Origin: an uncultured Actinomycetes bacterium
Lineage (GTDB): Bacteria; Actinomycetota; Actinomycetes; Actinomycetales; Microbacteriaceae
Direction of reading: 5' to 3'
DNA length: 34,920 nucleotides
NCBI GenBank assembly: GCA_903920435.1
Contig: CAIXMB010000199.1
Location: 1-34,920, forward strand
The notes under the pieces: model-generated
Database searches by the model: none
Told to the model about the DNA's origin: nothing
The model's input: only the letters and a program-made list of their open reading frames with translations
In this document: positions 4,507-11,999 of the stretch, in pieces
Position numbering within the stretch: the first letter of the stretch is position 1
Layout of the letters: every line of letters begins with the position of its first letter
Made by a program: the position numbers and the translations under genes

Positions 4507-6062
<1,556 letters not shown>

Positions 6063-6986
6063 CTAGCTATTCTCCAGCAACCACACCATGAGGGCCTTCT
6101 GGGCGTGCAGGCGGTTCTCCGCCTCATCCCAGATGACACTCTGCGGTCCGTCGATGACCTCGCTCGTGACCTCGTAGCCGCGGTCTGCGGGCAGGCAGTG
6201 CAGGAAGATCGCGTCGGGCTTCGCGAGCGCCATCATGTCGGCGTCGACCTTGTACGACGAGAGGGATGCCACGCGCGCAGCCTTCTCGTCCTCCTTGCCC
6301 ATCGACACCCACGTGTCGGTGACGACCACGTCGGCACCCGCGACCGCCTCGAGCGGATCGGTGTAGATCGTGACCGACCCCCCGGTCTGCACGGCGATCG
6401 CGTCGGCGTCGGCGACGACCCGCTCGTCGGGCATGTAGTCGGCGGGGCAGGCGACGCGCACGTGCATGCCGGCGGTCGCGCCCGCCAGCAGGTACGAGTG
6501 CACCATGTTGTCCGCGCCGTCGCCGAGGAAGGTGACGGTGAGACCCGCGAGCGTGCCCTTGTGCTCGCGGATGGTGAGCAGGTCGGCGAGCAGCTGGCAC
6601 GGGTGGAACTCGTCGCTCAGCGCGTTGATCACCGGCACGGTGGTGTCGGCTGCCATCTCGACGAGGCCGGACTGGGCGTAGGTGCGCCAGACGATCGCGG
6701 CGACCTGGCGCTCGAGCACGCGCGCGGTGTCGGACGGGCTCTCCTTGCCGCCGAGCTGGCTGTTGGCCGTGGAGATGATGAGCGGCTGGCCGCCGAGGTC
6801 GGCGATGCCGACCGCGAACGAGACACGAGTGCGAGTCGACGACTTGTCGAAGATCACGGCGACCGTCTGCGGGCCGGCGAGGGGCGTGCGGCCCCAGCGG
6901 TCGGCCTTGATCTGCTCGGCGAGGTCGAGGATCGCGGTCTGCTCGGCCTGGGTCAGGTCGTCGTCGCGCAGGAAGTGGCGGGTCAT
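6063..6986 (-). CDS. argF: Ornithine carbamoyltransferase
   Basis: Makes citrulline from ornithine and carbamoyl phosphate. The 307-residue product carries the carbamoyl-phosphate motif SSTRTR (49-54), HPCQ (128-131) and the ornithine-site HCLP (263-266), the standard anabolic OTCase set. The ATG overlaps the argD TGA by four bases (ATGA). In many actinobacteria argR and argG follow argF; here argH follows immediately. Confidence 0.97.
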   Translation of the reverse strand: MTRHFLRDDDLTQAEQTAILDLAEQIKADRWGRTPLAGPQTVAVIFDKSSTRTRVSFAVGIADLGGQPLIISTANSQLGGKESPSDTARVLERQVAAIVWRTYAQSGLVEMAADTTVPVINALSDEFHPCQLLADLLTIREHKGTLAGLTVTFLGDGADNMVHSYLLAGATAGMHVRVACPADYMPDERVVADADAIAVQTGGSVTIYTDPLEAVAGADVVVTDTWVSMGKEDEKAARVASLSSYKVDADMMALAKPDAIFLHCLPADRGYEVTSEVIDGPQSVIWDEAENRLHAQKALMVWLLENS

Positions 6987-8158
6987 GCGTTGGCCTCCAG
7001 AGCCTTGGTGAACTTCTCGATGAACTCGGCGACATCCGCCTCGGTGATGATCAGCGCCGGTGCGAGACGGATGCTCGTGTCGTTGGGCGCGTTGACGATG
7101 AGCCCGAGGCTCGCCGCCGAGGCAACCACCGCGGGGGCGACGGGCTTCGCCAGCCCCACGCCGATCAGCAGCCCCTGGCCGCGGATCTCGTCCACGAGTG
7201 GGAGGCCCGCGAGTGCTGCACGGATCTGGCCGCCGCGCTCGGCCGCATTGGCGACGAGGCCCGCTGATTCGATCTCGCCCAGGACGGCGTTCGCCGCCGC
7301 GGTCACGAGCGGGTTGCCGCCGTACGTGCTGCCGTGCTGGCCGGCGACGAGCAGGTCGGCGGCCGCACCGTAAGCGACGAGTGCGCCGATGGGCACTCCC
7401 CCGCCGATGCCCTTGGCGAGCGCGATCGCGTCGGGCACGATGCCCGTCTTCTGGAAGGCGAACCAGGAGCCGGTGCGCCCGGCGCCCGTCTGGATCTCGT
7501 CGAGGATGAGCAGCACGCCGTGCTTCGCGGTGATCTCCCGTGCGGCAGCGAGGTAGCCCTCCGGCAGGTCGATGACACCCGCCTCACCCTTGATCGGCTC
7601 GACGAAGAGGGCGGAGACATCCGGCCCGATCGCCGCCTCGAGGGCCGCGATCGTCGAGTCGATGTGCTCGACGTTCGGCAGCAGCGGCTCGAACGGCTCG
7701 CGCAGCGCAGGCTTGCCGGTGAGCGAGAGCGAGCCCATAGTGCGCCCGTGGAAGCTGTTCTGCAGAGCGAGGATGCGCGGGCGCCCGGTGCGGCGCGCGA
7801 GTTTGATACCCGCCTCGATCGCCTCGGCGCCCGAGTTGCAGAAGTACACCCGGTCGCCGCCGGTGAGGCGCAGCAGGCGCGCGGCGAGCTCGAGCTGCGG
7901 AGGCGTCGCGAAGTAGTTGGAGACGTGGCCGAGGGTCGCGATCTGCTCGCTGACCGCCTTCACGAGCACCGGGTGCGCGTGACCGAGCGAGAGCACGGCG
8001 ATGCCGCCGAGGAAATCGAGGTACTTGTTGCCCTCGGAGTCCCACACGCGGGCGCCCTCGCCGCGCACGAGCTCGGCGCTCGGCAGGGCCGCGGACTTCA
8101 TGATCTTGTTCTGATAATCCTCTTGCCACGCCTGCACTGAGCCTGTCGAATGTGTCAT
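6983..8158 (-). CDS. argD: Acetylornithine aminotransferase
   Basis: PLP-dependent class III aminotransferase converting N-acetylglutamate semialdehyde to N-acetylornithine. 391 residues, normal for the family. [15 protein letters not shown] (108-122) is the cofactor phosphate region, [14 protein letters not shown] (217-230) holds the PLP-ring aspartate, and Lys249 in ALAKGIGGG is the Schiff-base lysine. I start it at ATG 8158, which overlaps the argB stop by four bases (ATGA). The frame stays open further upstream, but that stretch is argB read out of frame. Confidence 0.97.
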
Positions 8159-9006
8159 GCGGGTACTACCTCCGTGCCGATACCGCTCTGGGTGAAGACC
8201 TCGAGCAGGATTGAGTGCTTCTCGCGGCCGTCGATGATGGCGGCCTTGGGCACTCCCCCGGCCACCGCCTCGAGGCACGCTGCCATCTTGGGGATCATGC
8301 CCGACTCGAGGCTCGGCAGTAGCTGCTCGAGCTCGGCGGTGGTGATGACGCTCACGAGCGAGTCGCGGTCTGGCCAATCGCTGTAGAGGCCGGCCACGTC
8401 GGTGAGGATCACGAGCTTCGCGGCCCCGAGCGCCACCGCGAGCGCGGCCGCGGCGCGGTCGGCGTTGACGTTGAGCCAGCTGTCTGGGCCATTGGCCACG
8501 GTCGACACCACGGGGATGTGCCCGTCTCCCAGTATCCGGAGAACGCCGTCAGGGTCGACGGCCGTTACGTCGCCCACGAGCCCGAGGTCGCCGCGCACCT
8601 CGCCCGTGAAGAGCCCGTGCTCGTCGCCGGAGATGCCGCGCCCGAGGTCGCCGTGCTCGTTGATGAGCGCGACGAGCTCGCCGCCCACCTGCTCCTTGAG
8701 CACCTGCCGGATGACCGGCATCGACTCGGCCGTCGTGACCCGGTACCCGCCCCGGAACTCGCTCGGGATGCCCCGGCGCGTGAGCTCCGCGGTGATCTGC
8801 GGTCCCCCGCCGTGCACGACCACGGGCTTCACGCCCGCGTAGCGCAGGTAGACCATGTCCTCCGCGAAGGCGCGCTTGAGCTCGTCGTCGATCATGGCGT
8901 TGCCGCCGAACTTCACCACGATGATCTCGTCGTGGAACCGCTTGAGCCAGGGCAGTGCCTCGATGAGCACTGCCGCCTTGGCCGCGGCCTGATCCTGGCT
9001 GACCAT
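8155..9006 (-). CDS. argB: Acetylglutamate kinase
   Basis: Phosphorylates N-acetylglutamate, usually the arginine-feedback-regulated step. 283 residues. The N-terminal lysine loop VVKFGGNAM (30-38) and the substrate-binding [10 protein letters not shown] match the amino acid kinase family. The N-terminal extension before VVKFGG, with a helix rich in Ala and Leu, is of the type that lets arginine-sensitive NAGKs form hexamers; this is inference. The ATG overlaps the argJ TAA by one base. Confidence 0.97.
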
Positions 9007-10157
9007 TACGACGAGTACGCGGAGTTCTCGTGCACGTAGTCGTGCGTGAGGTCGTTGGTCAGGATCGTCGCGCTCTCGGTGCCGACCCGCAGGTCGATGA
9101 GCAGGTCAACGCGGCGTGGCGTGATGTCCACCTCGCTGCGCGGGCGGTCGGGCGCGCCCGCGTGGCACACGCGCACCCCGTTCATGCTGACGTCGACGTC
9201 GTAGGGGTCGAACGCGGCATCCGTGGTGCCGATCGCCGCGAGCACGCGACCCCAGTTCGGATCGTTGCCGAACACGGCGGCCTTGAACAGGTTGTTGCGC
9301 GCCACCGAACGGCCGACGATCACGGCGTCGTCCTCGGTGAGGGCGCCCACGACCTCGATCCGGATGTCGTGGCTCGCGCCCTCGGCGTCGCCCTGCAGTT
9401 GCTCGGCGAGATCGAGGCACACGCTCGTGAGGGTCGCGACGAAGTCGTCGAAATCGGGCTCGACACCGGAGGCACCGGACGCGAGGAGGGAGACCTGGTC
9501 GTTCGTCGACATGCAGCCGTCGGAGTCGAGGCGGTCGAAGCTCACGTGCGTGGCCCTGCGCAGGGCGATGTCGAGCTCGGCGCTGGAGAGCACCACGTCG
9601 GTGGTGATGACGACGAGCATCGTCGCGAGGCCGGGCGCGAGCATGCCCGCGCCCTTCGCCATGCCACCGACCGTGTACCCGCCCGTGCCGGTGCGCACCG
9701 AGCGCTTGGGCTTCGAGTCGGTGGTCATGATCGCGCGGCTCGCCTCCTCGCCGTGGTCGCCGAGGCCGGATGCCGCGGCCGCAACCCCGGCGAGCACCTT
9801 GTCGAGCGGCAGCTGGTCGCCGATGAGCCCCGTGGAGCACACGAGCACGTCGCCCGCGCTCACACCGAGCGCCGCGCCGACCGCCTCTGCCGTCGAGTGC
9901 GTGACCTGGAAGCCCTGGGCCCCGGTGAAGCAGTTCGCGCCGCCCGAGTTGAGCACGATGGCACTCACCGTGCCGTCGGCGATGACCTGCTGCGACCAGA
10001 TGATCGGGTTGGCCTTCGACCTGTTGCTCGTGAAGACGACGGCGGCGTTCTGCAGCGGCCCGCGGTTGACGACGAGCGCGAGATCGAGCCCGCCGCTCGC
10101 CTTGAGCCCTGCGGTGACGCCTGACGCGTCGAAGCCGGAAGCTGCTGTGACGCTCAC
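9006..10157 (-). CDS. argJ: Bifunctional ornithine acetyltransferase / N-acetylglutamate synthase
   Basis: Recycles the acetyl group from acetylornithine to glutamate. 383 residues. The self-cleavage site lies in [20 protein letters not shown], between Ala178 and Thr179, with Thr179 the nucleophile of the beta chain. Whether it can also use acetyl-CoA cannot be read from sequence. The GTG start overlaps the argC TGA by two bases (GTGA). The reading frame is open further upstream, but that part lies within argC and encodes no family sequence. Confidence 0.95.
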
Positions 10158-11185
10158 GGTGCCACCCCATCTGTCGTGAGTCCTGTCGTCTCGGGGAATC
10201 CGAGCGCGATGTTCGCCGACTGGATCGCGGCGCCCGCGGTCCCCTTGACGAGGTTGTCGATCGCCGAGACCACCACGACGCGGCCGGCGGCCTCGTCGAC
10301 AGCACGCCCCATGAGGCACGTGTTGGCGCCGAGCGTGTCAGCCGTGCGCGGGAACTGGCCGTCGGGCAGCACGTGCACGAACGGCTCGTCGGCGTAGGCG
10401 GCCTCCCACGCGTCGCGCACCTGGGCCTTCGTGACGCCGGGCGCGAGGCGCGCGGTCGAGGTGGCGAGGATGCCGCGGCTCATCGGCACGAGCACCGGGG
10501 TGAACGACACGCTCACGCCGCTGCCGCCGGCGAGTTCGAGGTTCTGCCGGATCTCGGGCGTGTGCCGGTGGATGCCGCCCACCTGGTACGCGTTCGCCGA
10601 ACCGAGCAGCTCGCTCGCGAGCAACTCGGTCTTGAGGGACTTGCCCGCTCCCGACGGCCCGACCGCGAGCACGGCGACGAGGTCGGCCGACTCGATGACG
10701 CCCGCGGCGATGCCGGGAGCGAGGGCGAGCGTGATCGCCGTGACGTTGCATCCGGGCACCGCGATGCGCGTCGCACCCGCGAGGGCGGCGCGCTGCTGGG
10801 CGAGCTCGGGCAGGCCGTAGGTCCAGGCGCCGTAGTAGTCGCCGCCGTAGAACTGGGCCCAGTCGGCCTCGCTCGTCAGGCGGTGGTCGGCGCCGCAGTC
10901 GATCACGAGCGTGCCCTCGGGGAGGTCCCCCGTCACCCCGCCGGACTTGCCGTGGGGCAGGGCGAGGAACACGACGTCATGGCCGGCGAGGGTCGCGGCA
11001 TCCGTCGGCTGCAGCTGGAGGTGGGCGAGCGAGCGCAGGTGCGGCTGCGCGGCGATGAGCGGCTGGCCGGCGTTCTGGAACGCCGTGACGGTCGTGATCT
11101 CGAACTCGGGGTGGGCACTGAGCAGGCGCAGCACCTCACCTCCGGCATAGCCGCTGGCACCAGCCACGGCGACGGAAAGGGACAT
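10154..11185 (-). CDS. argC: N-acetyl-gamma-glutamyl-phosphate reductase
   Basis: NADPH-dependent reduction of acetylglutamyl phosphate. 343 residues, with the Rossmann motif GASGYAGGE (9-17) at the N-terminus and the catalytic Cys146 in [10 protein letters not shown]. First gene of the arg operon. There is no Shine-Dalgarno sequence before ATG 11185; TAAGGT lies 6 bases upstream, so it is probably leaderless. A second, longer transcript may start further up at the Arg-rich short ORF (11271-11345). Confidence 0.97.
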
Positions 11186-11191
11186 GGGTCA

Positions 11192-11197
11192 ACCTTA
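11192..11197 (-). promoter_or_regulatory. -10 box of leaderless argC promoter
   Basis: TAAGGT on the minus strand, 6 bases before the argC ATG. No clear -35 (the region is C/T-rich). Confidence 0.55.
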
Positions 11198-11233
11198 TTG
11201 AGAGAGGGACGAGGGGAACGTGCGGCGGCGGCT

Positions 11234-11256
11234 CACGCGACCGTGTGTCGGTCGTG
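11234..11256 (-). other. Hairpin between Arg-rich short ORF and argC
   Basis: On the minus strand CACGACCG (11256-11249), a five-base loop and CGGTCGCGTG (11243-11234) form an 8-bp stem with a two-base bulge. It lies 15 bases after the short ORF's stop. There is no T-tract, so it is not a classical terminator. It could influence readthrough or be a pause structure. Confidence 0.4.
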
Positions 11257-11270
11257 GCGCGAAACGTCGC

Positions 11271-11345
11271 CTATCGTCGCTCGTCGGACCGGCGGCGCAG
11301 GCCAGCGTTCAGCACGAGGCTGTCGTTGGTGCGGAGCGTGGTCAC
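11271..11345 (-). CDS. Candidate Arg-codon leader peptide upstream of argC
   Basis: A 24-codon ORF beginning GTG at 11345 and ending TAG. It has six Arg codons, five of them in the last nine positions (C-terminus RRRSDERR). A -10 hexamer TACTGT lies 7 bases before the GTG, so it could be translated leaderlessly. Such a peptide 85 bases before an arginine operon is what an attenuation leader looks like. This is inference: no homologue or transcript is seen here, and a hairpin but no T-tract follows. Confidence 0.45.
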   Translation of the reverse strand: MTTLRTNDSLVLNAGLRRRSDERR

Positions 11346-11352
11346 GTCACCG

Positions 11353-11358
11353 ACAGTA
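11353..11358 (-). promoter_or_regulatory. -10 box before the Arg-rich short ORF
   Basis: TACTGT on the minus strand, 7 bases before the GTG at 11345, so transcription would start at that codon. No good -35. Confidence 0.45.
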
Positions 11359-11441
11359 GTGCACTCCCGCGTATCCCCGCGAATCGCTAGCCTTGTGGCG
11401 GATGCTCGGAGCGAGCTCCCCGTGACACAAGGAGAAACCCC

Positions 11442-11999
11442 ATGTCAGATTTCGATGGACTGCTCGACCTGATCCCCGTCGGCGACATCGCCAAGCAGCT
11501 CGGCGTGCCCGAGGACGTGGCCGAGGCCGCGGTCAAGCAGGCGATCCCGGCGATCATCGGTGGCATGGCCGCCAACGCCAAGGACTCCGGCGGGGCCAAG
11601 TCGCTCGAGAAGGCCCTCAGCAAGCACGCCACCACCTCCAGCTCGGGCAAGAAGGTCGCCGTCAAGGACATCGACACCTCCGACGGCGAGAAGATCGTCA
11701 ACAACGTCTTCGGCGCCAAGAAGAACGACGTGGTCGCGGCCGTCGCCGACACGAGCAAGGGCGACGTCACCAAGGAGCTCATCGCCAAGCTCCTGCCGAT
11801 CATCGCGCCCATCGTGATCTCGTTCATCGCCTCGCAGTTCCTCGGCCAGAAGACCGAGACGCCCGCCGCCAAGGAGGAGGCGCCCGCCGCGTCGTCCGGC
11901 GGCATCGGCGACCTGCTCGGCGGCCTGCTCGGCAGCGCCGGCGGCCAGGAGGTCATCGGCAGCGTGCTCGGCGGCCTCCTCGGCGGCGGCAAGAAGTAG
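11442..11999 (+). CDS. DUF937 (YidB-like) family protein
   Basis: A 185-residue protein of unknown function. The N-terminal two thirds is a helical DUF937 domain (residues 1 to about 100: LLDLIPVGDIAKQLGV, AVKQAIPAIIGGMAANA). A hydrophobic stretch follows at about 118-135 (LIAKLLPIIAPIVISFIA). An acidic/Ala/Pro linker then leads to a Gly-rich tail with repeated GGLLG blocks ending GGGKK. ATG 11442 has AAGGAG nine bases upstream. A TAGCCT at 11388-11393 may be its -10. A strong hairpin terminator follows. It is the only plus-strand gene between argC and pheT. Confidence 0.85.
   Translation: MSDFDGLLDLIPVGDIAKQLGVPEDVAEAAVKQAIPAIIGGMAANAKDSGGAKSLEKALSKHATTSSSGKKVAVKDIDTSDGEKIVNNVFGAKKNDVVAAVADTSKGDVTKELIAKLLPIIAPIVISFIASQFLGQKTETPAAKEEAPAASSGGIGDLLGGLLGSAGGQEVIGSVLGGLLGGGKK

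Follow-up and report, generated by a model that had tools for sequence, protein, structure and literature searches.

The argC locus and its upstream open reading frame

We analyzed a stretch of 34,920 nucleotides (hereafter the window) from an uncultured member of the Microbacteriaceae (contig CAIXMB010000199.1), in which a cluster of arginine biosynthesis genes lies on the minus strand. The first cluster gene is argC (10154-11185; TIGR01850, E 1.8e-107), followed downstream by argJ (9006-10319), argB (8155-9006), argD (6983-8377), argF (6063-6986) and argH (4647-6062), with the limits of these five genes (4647-10319 together) being those of their open reading frames. The argCJBDFH genes probably constitute one operon. 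The window's own genome, of which the assembly is possibly incomplete, has no match to argG (PF00764). Seven relatives (L127-L133) carry a divergent argG, and a crude scan of seven loci with approximate argG starts revealed no Arg leader before a separate argG.

Between argC and a divergent DUF937 gene, beyond which lies pheT, there is a short upstream open reading frame (uORF) of 24 codons on the minus strand (11271-11345, VTTLRTNDSLVLNAGLRRRSDERR) that is kept in the genus and in a family sample. An earlier note had described it from the letters of the window as a candidate leaderless arginine leader peptide, and rereading bore this description out. Specifically, the frame runs from a GTG at 11345 to a TAG ending at 11271, five Arg residues fall within its final nine, its stop lies 85 nt from the argC ATG at 11185, and a -10-like TACTGT hexamer of the TANNNT type (11353-11358, minus strand) stands 7 nt before the GTG. 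The Arg codons cluster at 11274-11297 (minus strand), with an RRR run at 11297-11289 and a terminal RR at 11279-11274. The hairpin that had been placed between the uORF and argC is also there, with a 5' arm at 11271-11265 and a 3' arm at 11230-11224. This arrangement suggests a leaderless transcript that would begin at the uORF GTG. A search of 10900-11600 returned neither a sigma-70 consensus match nor a T-tract terminator, the absence of the latter being a weak point that the note itself had named. Just before the argC ATG, an SD-like AAGG (11193-11196, minus strand) is located inside a TAAGGT that could serve as a -10 box. At the Rfam gathering score the sole match in the window is a 16S rRNA gene fragment at the contig end (1-329, minus strand, RF00177), with no T-box, riboswitch or leader family matched at the uORF element.

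Conservation of the leader and distribution of ArgR

The earlier note had staked its proposal on the frame staying rich in Arg codons among close relatives, which is what we observed. All 27 genomes of the genus have argC (identity 74-100%) and an Arg-rich uORF before it. The uORF peptide ends in ERR in 26 of them, of which 15 have an Arg run preceding this ending and the other 11 have a thinner version, LRGADERR, with just three Arg in the final eight residues. The divergent peptide of L025 reads MDIAGSRQGQVRRPVARARRS. For the family, 100 upstream regions were hand-picked, with no more than five per genus, from the best-scoring argC places of 332 matching genomes, so that genomes with a more divergent argC are absent from this sample. 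Two upstream regions (L206 and L234) lacked a recognized argC start, and 61 of the 98 usable ones, hand-picked as they were among the best-scoring, contain an Arg-rich uORF; the rule itself gave 62, one of which (L215) was dropped as a pheT end. The named relatives are Salinibacterium, Rhodoglobus, Leifsonia, Glaciihabitans, Mycetocola and Microbacterium, all members of the Microbacteriaceae.

The occurrence of the uORF is far above background. A strict rule for a leaderless Arg-rich uORF was positive for 78 of 125 argC upstream regions, as compared with 16 of 3295 random windows of the named argC loci (0.5%) and 47 of 2500 dinucleotide shuffles. When the same rule was applied to the 125 regions with other residues in place of Arg, the highest count after R (78) was that of A (16), with S giving 11. 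Subtraction of the 62 family positives from 78 under this rule leaves just 16 positives among the 27 genus members.

The features of the leader were quantitated in a set of 100 leaders. This set was obtained from 137 upstream regions (27 from the genus, 98 from the family and 12 hand-picked from 80 named loci) by removal of 33 in which the rule found no uORF and of four pheT ends, L215 among them. The leaders carry 29 genus labels, one of which we assigned to eight named Microbacterium-like loci, and four more named loci were placed by us under labels g3, g56 or g84. The uORFs have 18-42 residues, with the start being ambiguous in at least four leaders (L014, L023, L024 and L026, where a second GTG with a TANNNT lies downstream), which affects lengths and spacings. 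The TANNNT box, whose presence at 5-8 nt formed part of the uORF search rule, is separated from the uORF start by 6 nt in 77 leaders, 7 nt in 22 and 8 nt in one. An SD-like sequence occurs upstream of the uORF in only nine of the 100.

In the 15 codons before the hairpin the ORF frame of the 100 leaders contains on average 6.03 Arg codons versus 1.24 and 2.72 in the other frames; it is the frame richest in Arg codons for 28 of 29 genus labels, and each of the 100 leaders has three to eight Arg codons in this region. The last Arg codon begins 8, 5 or 2 nt before the GGCG arm of the hairpin in 64, 35 and one of the leaders, respectively. All 100 leaders have the hairpin arm in the same frame with respect to the ORF, with the stop codon shifting between a position at the arm (63 leaders) and one beyond the arm start (37 leaders). 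The uORF endings vary from genus to genus (RARRS, DRRI, GRRL, RRLSATS, ATSHR). In the last ten codons of the uORF in the window's genus, single-change differences comprise 227 synonymous versus 117 others, as counted over non-independent pairs of 17 distinct sequences with L025 left out. Judged from these sequences, what is conserved is the density of Arg codons, the frame they are in and how far the last of them lies from the hairpin, and not the peptide. Relative to argC of the named loci, where CGA makes up 73 and CGG 324 of 1259 Arg codons, the leaders are richer in CGA (203 of 729) and poorer in CGG (43 of 729). Since CGA is also among the invariant letters of the element, codon choice is not separable here from a constraint on the RNA.

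A covariance model of the whole RNA element, R1, matches the window at 11183-11298 on the minus strand with E 3.4e-13, the window sequence being among the 48 leaders of the model; because R1 was built from these leaders, part of its specificity for this place is by construction. R1 has a single match in the window's own genome at E <= 0.1, one strong match at argC in each of the 27 genus genomes, and matches in 167 of 349 family genomes, representing 48 of 85 genera. A few of these matches are weak (E above 0.001), and there is a second weak match in genome G009 (E 0.024). R1 matches and argC were paired by hand among the matches listed in both searches, and all 96 of the 96 matches so paired, among those listed, end at the start of argC.

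Another 3' end can occupy the place of the uORF. Genus labels g5, g32 and g36 account for 21 of the 167 R1 matches, and their nine fetched members have the 3' end of pheT in place of a uORF with the hairpin kept. Loci with pheT directly upstream of argC and its 3' end at the uORF position are L035, L042, L043, L045, L142-L146, L151-L153 and L215. Examples of these ends are GAGCGATTCGGGGCGAC and GERFGATLRD, and a hairpin of the GGCGAC/GTCGCC or GCCGCC type is retained. The uORF tails of several genera (RRxSATS, GERFGAP) resemble this PheT tail GERFGATLRD. This similarity could reflect an origin of the leader in pheT, an extension of pheT over the element, or convergence.

Among the other loci examined, some genera that lack a uORF carry a TANNNT box immediately ahead of the argC ATG, as in TAGATTTGATGC-ATG. 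The Clavibacter (L057, L058, L061, L063) and Cryobacterium (L052, L054) loci contain no Arg uORF by the rule and no ArgR match, and their argC looks leaderless, with a TANNNT about 6 nt before the ATG. In Leucobacter (L060, L064-L066, L069-L075), GGTGCCAGAATAG or a near variant was seen by eye about 30-50 nt before argC, GGAGCGTCG-ATG occurs at argC in many, and the upstream region is unlike the leader of other genera. The repeated Leucobacter sequence is possibly another promoter or control site.

The earlier note had observed that argR is missing from the cluster and proposed that the leader replaces ArgR control. The absence extends to the window's whole genome (96% complete), where no ArgR match (PF01316) was found, as well as to all 27 genus genomes and all 349 family genomes. 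In contrast, 181 of 198 genomes in a sample of the order have an ArgR match, and the 17 without one comprise 14 Microbacteriaceae and three others, two of which are under 1 Mb. Seen across these genomes, the absence of ArgR goes with the family, with the R1 element covering about half of it, a distribution with which the proposed replacement would fit. For the named loci, of which 75 were first chosen, 50 genomes were searched and six contain ArgR, namely Demequina, Promicromonospora, Antribacter, two Cellulomonas and one actinobacterial MAG. All six have an ARG-box-like sequence at argC by eye. Such sequences, for example TGTATAGTTATGCAC and GCATAACTATGTA, were seen at argC of L089, L092, L096 and L098-L107, which belong to other families. 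ArgR occurs in most other genomes of the order, with ARG-box-like sequences seen by eye at argC in Demequina and Promicromonospora, but it is a protein repressor and has no match in the Microbacteriaceae (0/349).

Predicted pairings within the leader RNA

Structural analysis was based on alignment A1, consisting of 48 of 55 leaders after seven near-duplicates were left out. Invariant in A1 are a CGA codon, the GGCG of the 5' arm, a GCC of the 3' arm and the first G of the near-invariant AAGG before argC. RNAalifold returned a GGCG/CGCC stem with two further pairs unprompted, with a covariation term near zero (-0.07). In a 12-pair stem 80.7% of cells are paired, and its covariation of 0.219 compares with 0.154 +- 0.014 in shuffled alignments, a value reached by none of 500 shuffles and by no slid version of the stem. 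Two of five pair measures, those counting pairs or pair types, were not above shuffles, with 85 and 334 of 500 shuffles being as high. The local fold of the window (11183-11360) is no more stable than shuffled sequence (z -0.81), so the structural support comes from comparison.

Four segments of the leader, all on the minus strand, are of relevance. Segment 1 (GACGAG) lies at the uORF end and is the partner of segment 4. Segment 2 (GGCGACG, 11265-11271) is the 5' arm of the hairpin and shares the last base of the stop codon, and segment 3 (CGCCGCC, 11224-11230) is the 3' arm, which was found by RNAalifold and pair counts and pairs with segment 2 with one A-C mismatch; across leaders this hairpin is of the type GGCGACG...CGTCGCC. 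Segment 4 (CTCGTCC, 11207-11213) emerged from the minimum free energy fold and from permutation tests of the 1:4 and 3:4 pairings. A first swap test, done without row and column centring, had found a leader's own pairing better in 497 of 500 draws; the top tenth was reached by just eight of 29 genus labels, and the window's own 3' region was equalled or surpassed by 26 of 28 foreign ones. With different segment limits and controls, the test was redone as an alignment-free genus permutation test, in which permutations were as good as the real arrangement in 134 of 5000 cases for 2:3, two of 5000 for 3:4 and five of 5000 for 1:4. Five control pairings gave null results in these permutations. A classical 1:2 pairing was also tried and received no support from them. 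The 2:3 and 1:4 pairings are nested and 3:4 competes with both, which supports the view that the three pairings would make up two mutually exclusive folds, as in ribosome-mediated attenuators.

Folding with a simulated ribosome is consistent with such a switch. A ribosome stalled at the first Arg codon leaves 2:3 in place (6.5 pairs), whereas with the ribosome at the stop codon 2:3 drops to 0.2 pairs and 3:4 goes from 4.1 to 6.4. For 22 of 29 genus labels a ribosome at the stop gives more 3:4 pairing, though in the genus of the window this pairing is weak, going from 0.6 to 2.7 pairs. With the ribosome stalled at the last Arg codon the outcome resembles that of a ribosome at the stop, such that early and late stalls result in opposite folds. 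The simulations would therefore reproduce classical attenuator logic provided that the early Arg codons matter most.

How the folds might act on argC was also addressed. Intrinsic termination is ruled against by the missing T-tract in 10900-11600 and in the 100 leaders, in each of which the longest T run before argC is no more than 4. Sequestration of the SD by the 2:3 hairpin likewise received no support, as masking segment 1 or 2 left the predicted SD accessibility unchanged overall; medians are 0.44-0.46 whatever the ribosome position. In single genera, such as g42, 3:4 helices extend to the SD. The 48-nt stretch ahead of the SD is rich in C (0.42 C and 0.25 G, relative to 0.37 C and 0.32 G in the uORF), a composition that would suit Rho without being proof of its action.

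A proposed arginine attenuator and its alternatives

On the basis of sequence comparison we put at roughly three in four the probability that this element is an arginine-responsive leader-peptide attenuator of the argCJBDFH cluster. In this model transcription would begin at the GTG of the leaderless uORF, which would then be translated. When arginyl-tRNA is scarce, a ribosome would stall in the Arg cluster at segment 1 and leave segment 2 free, so that 2:3 pairs, 3:4 is blocked and argC expression can proceed. With plentiful arginine, a ribosome reaching the uORF end would cover segment 2, allowing 3:4 to form near the argC start and to lower argC expression through premature termination or hindered initiation. 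Premature termination would probably be factor-assisted because there is no U-tract. In the Microbacteriaceae the element would take the place that ArgR has in other families of the order.

Some of the same observations could arise if translation of the uORF controls argC without any sensing of arginine. A hairpin at the end of any upstream frame, be it the uORF or pheT, might couple argC to general translation or Rho, with Arg codons being favored since their RNA letters suit pairing. The g5, g32 and g36 members that keep the hairpin after a pheT end, the PheT-like uORF tails of many genera and the pairing of segment 1 with segment 4 all favor this explanation. We nonetheless judge it unlikely, as the Arg codons are concentrated in a single frame, their enrichment spans 15 codons and so extends beyond the paired letters, and differences in the last ten codons within the window's genus are mostly synonymous even if counted over non-independent pairs. 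The well-kept ERR ending of the genus (26/27) would also agree with a functional small protein or an arrest peptide, for instance an exit-tunnel sensor of free arginine. Across genera, however, both the length (18-42 residues) and the sequence of the peptide vary, with Arg density and geometry alone being common, and we give this explanation very little credence.

The earlier note had also raised the concern that argC appears to have its own -10 box closer in, which would let a promoter of its own (TAAGGT, shortly ahead of the ATG) account for most argC expression and leave the uORF region with no regulatory role. Part of this concern stands, given that 68 of the 100 leaders, that of the window included, have a TANNNT at leaderless distance before argC, and that related genera without the uORF show argC starts with such a box, as noted above. 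It is softened by the 32 leaders without a TANNNT and by an SD-like sequence before argC in 99 of the 100. A useless region would moreover hardly retain an Arg-rich frame and a paired stem over 29 genus labels, and we regard this as the least probable of the alternatives, with only the slightest chance of being correct.

A more encompassing version of the attenuator reading is put forward as tentative, and we would not be surprised to see it fail. ArgR may have been lost at the base of the Microbacteriaceae, with much of the family coming to rely on a leaderless Arg-codon attenuator that has no intrinsic terminator and alternates between two folds, one with 1:4 and 2:3 nested and the other with 3:4. 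Its origin would be the 3' end of the neighboring pheT, the last codons of which still occupy the uORF place in some genera.

Leaderless short ORFs with poly-Cys stretches in mycobacteria are reportedly cysteine-responsive attenuators, to go by the title of Canestrari et al. 2020 (doi 10.1111/mmi.14498). As far as that title goes, they share with the present leader an actinobacterial host, leaderless initiation and a short ORF before an operon that is rich in codons for one amino acid, and they differ in that here the amino acid is arginine, the family is another and a conserved hairpin adjoins the control codons. No conserved RNA regulatory structures are reported upstream of the arginine operons examined in a 2005 survey of RNA control of amino-acid genes in Actinobacteria (PMC1262725). 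The trp and leuS leaders of Actinobacteria (PMC1262725) and the ilvB1 leader of Mycobacterium tuberculosis (PMC13236596) are classical ribosome-mediated attenuators. In these as in the argC leader, control codons lie in a short ORF, and antiterminator-like and terminator-like pairings exclude each other according to where the ribosome stands; the argC element differs from them in lacking a U-tract terminator and in having an extra 1:4 pairing and a leaderless uORF. In the speF leader of Salmonella, Arg codons in the uORF orf34 mediate arginine control by ribosome pausing, and no intrinsic terminator was reported there, with Rho, RNA folding and decay being involved (PMC6386406). It shows that arginine control by an Arg-codon uORF does not require an intrinsic terminator. 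The same report gives orf34 two consecutive Arg codons, a conserved peptide and its own Shine-Dalgarno sequence, and has it governing ornithine decarboxylase and not arginine synthesis (PMC6386406); we claim no common descent of orf34 with the argC leader.

Measured against known attenuators, the locus has a short ORF with a run of Arg codons close before an arginine operon, and exclusive ribosome-dependent pairings that are seen statistically and in silico and are weak in the window's clade. A U-tract intrinsic terminator, as found in the classical transcriptional form, is absent, so our claim is that the element would work like an attenuator and not that it is a classical member of that group. 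We found no description of an arginine leader in the Microbacteriaceae in the literature searched, most subscription journals being outside its coverage.

If the attenuator reading is true, the range of amino acids to which leaderless leader peptides respond would come to include arginine. The leaders of this family would also provide a large set of natural variants for studying attenuation without a U-tract terminator in high-GC actinobacteria, with ArgR-bearing sister families serving as a comparison. For the Microbacteriaceae themselves, it would mean that in a family where the protein repressor ArgR is missing throughout, a device made of RNA and the ribosome likely has the same task at the same operon.
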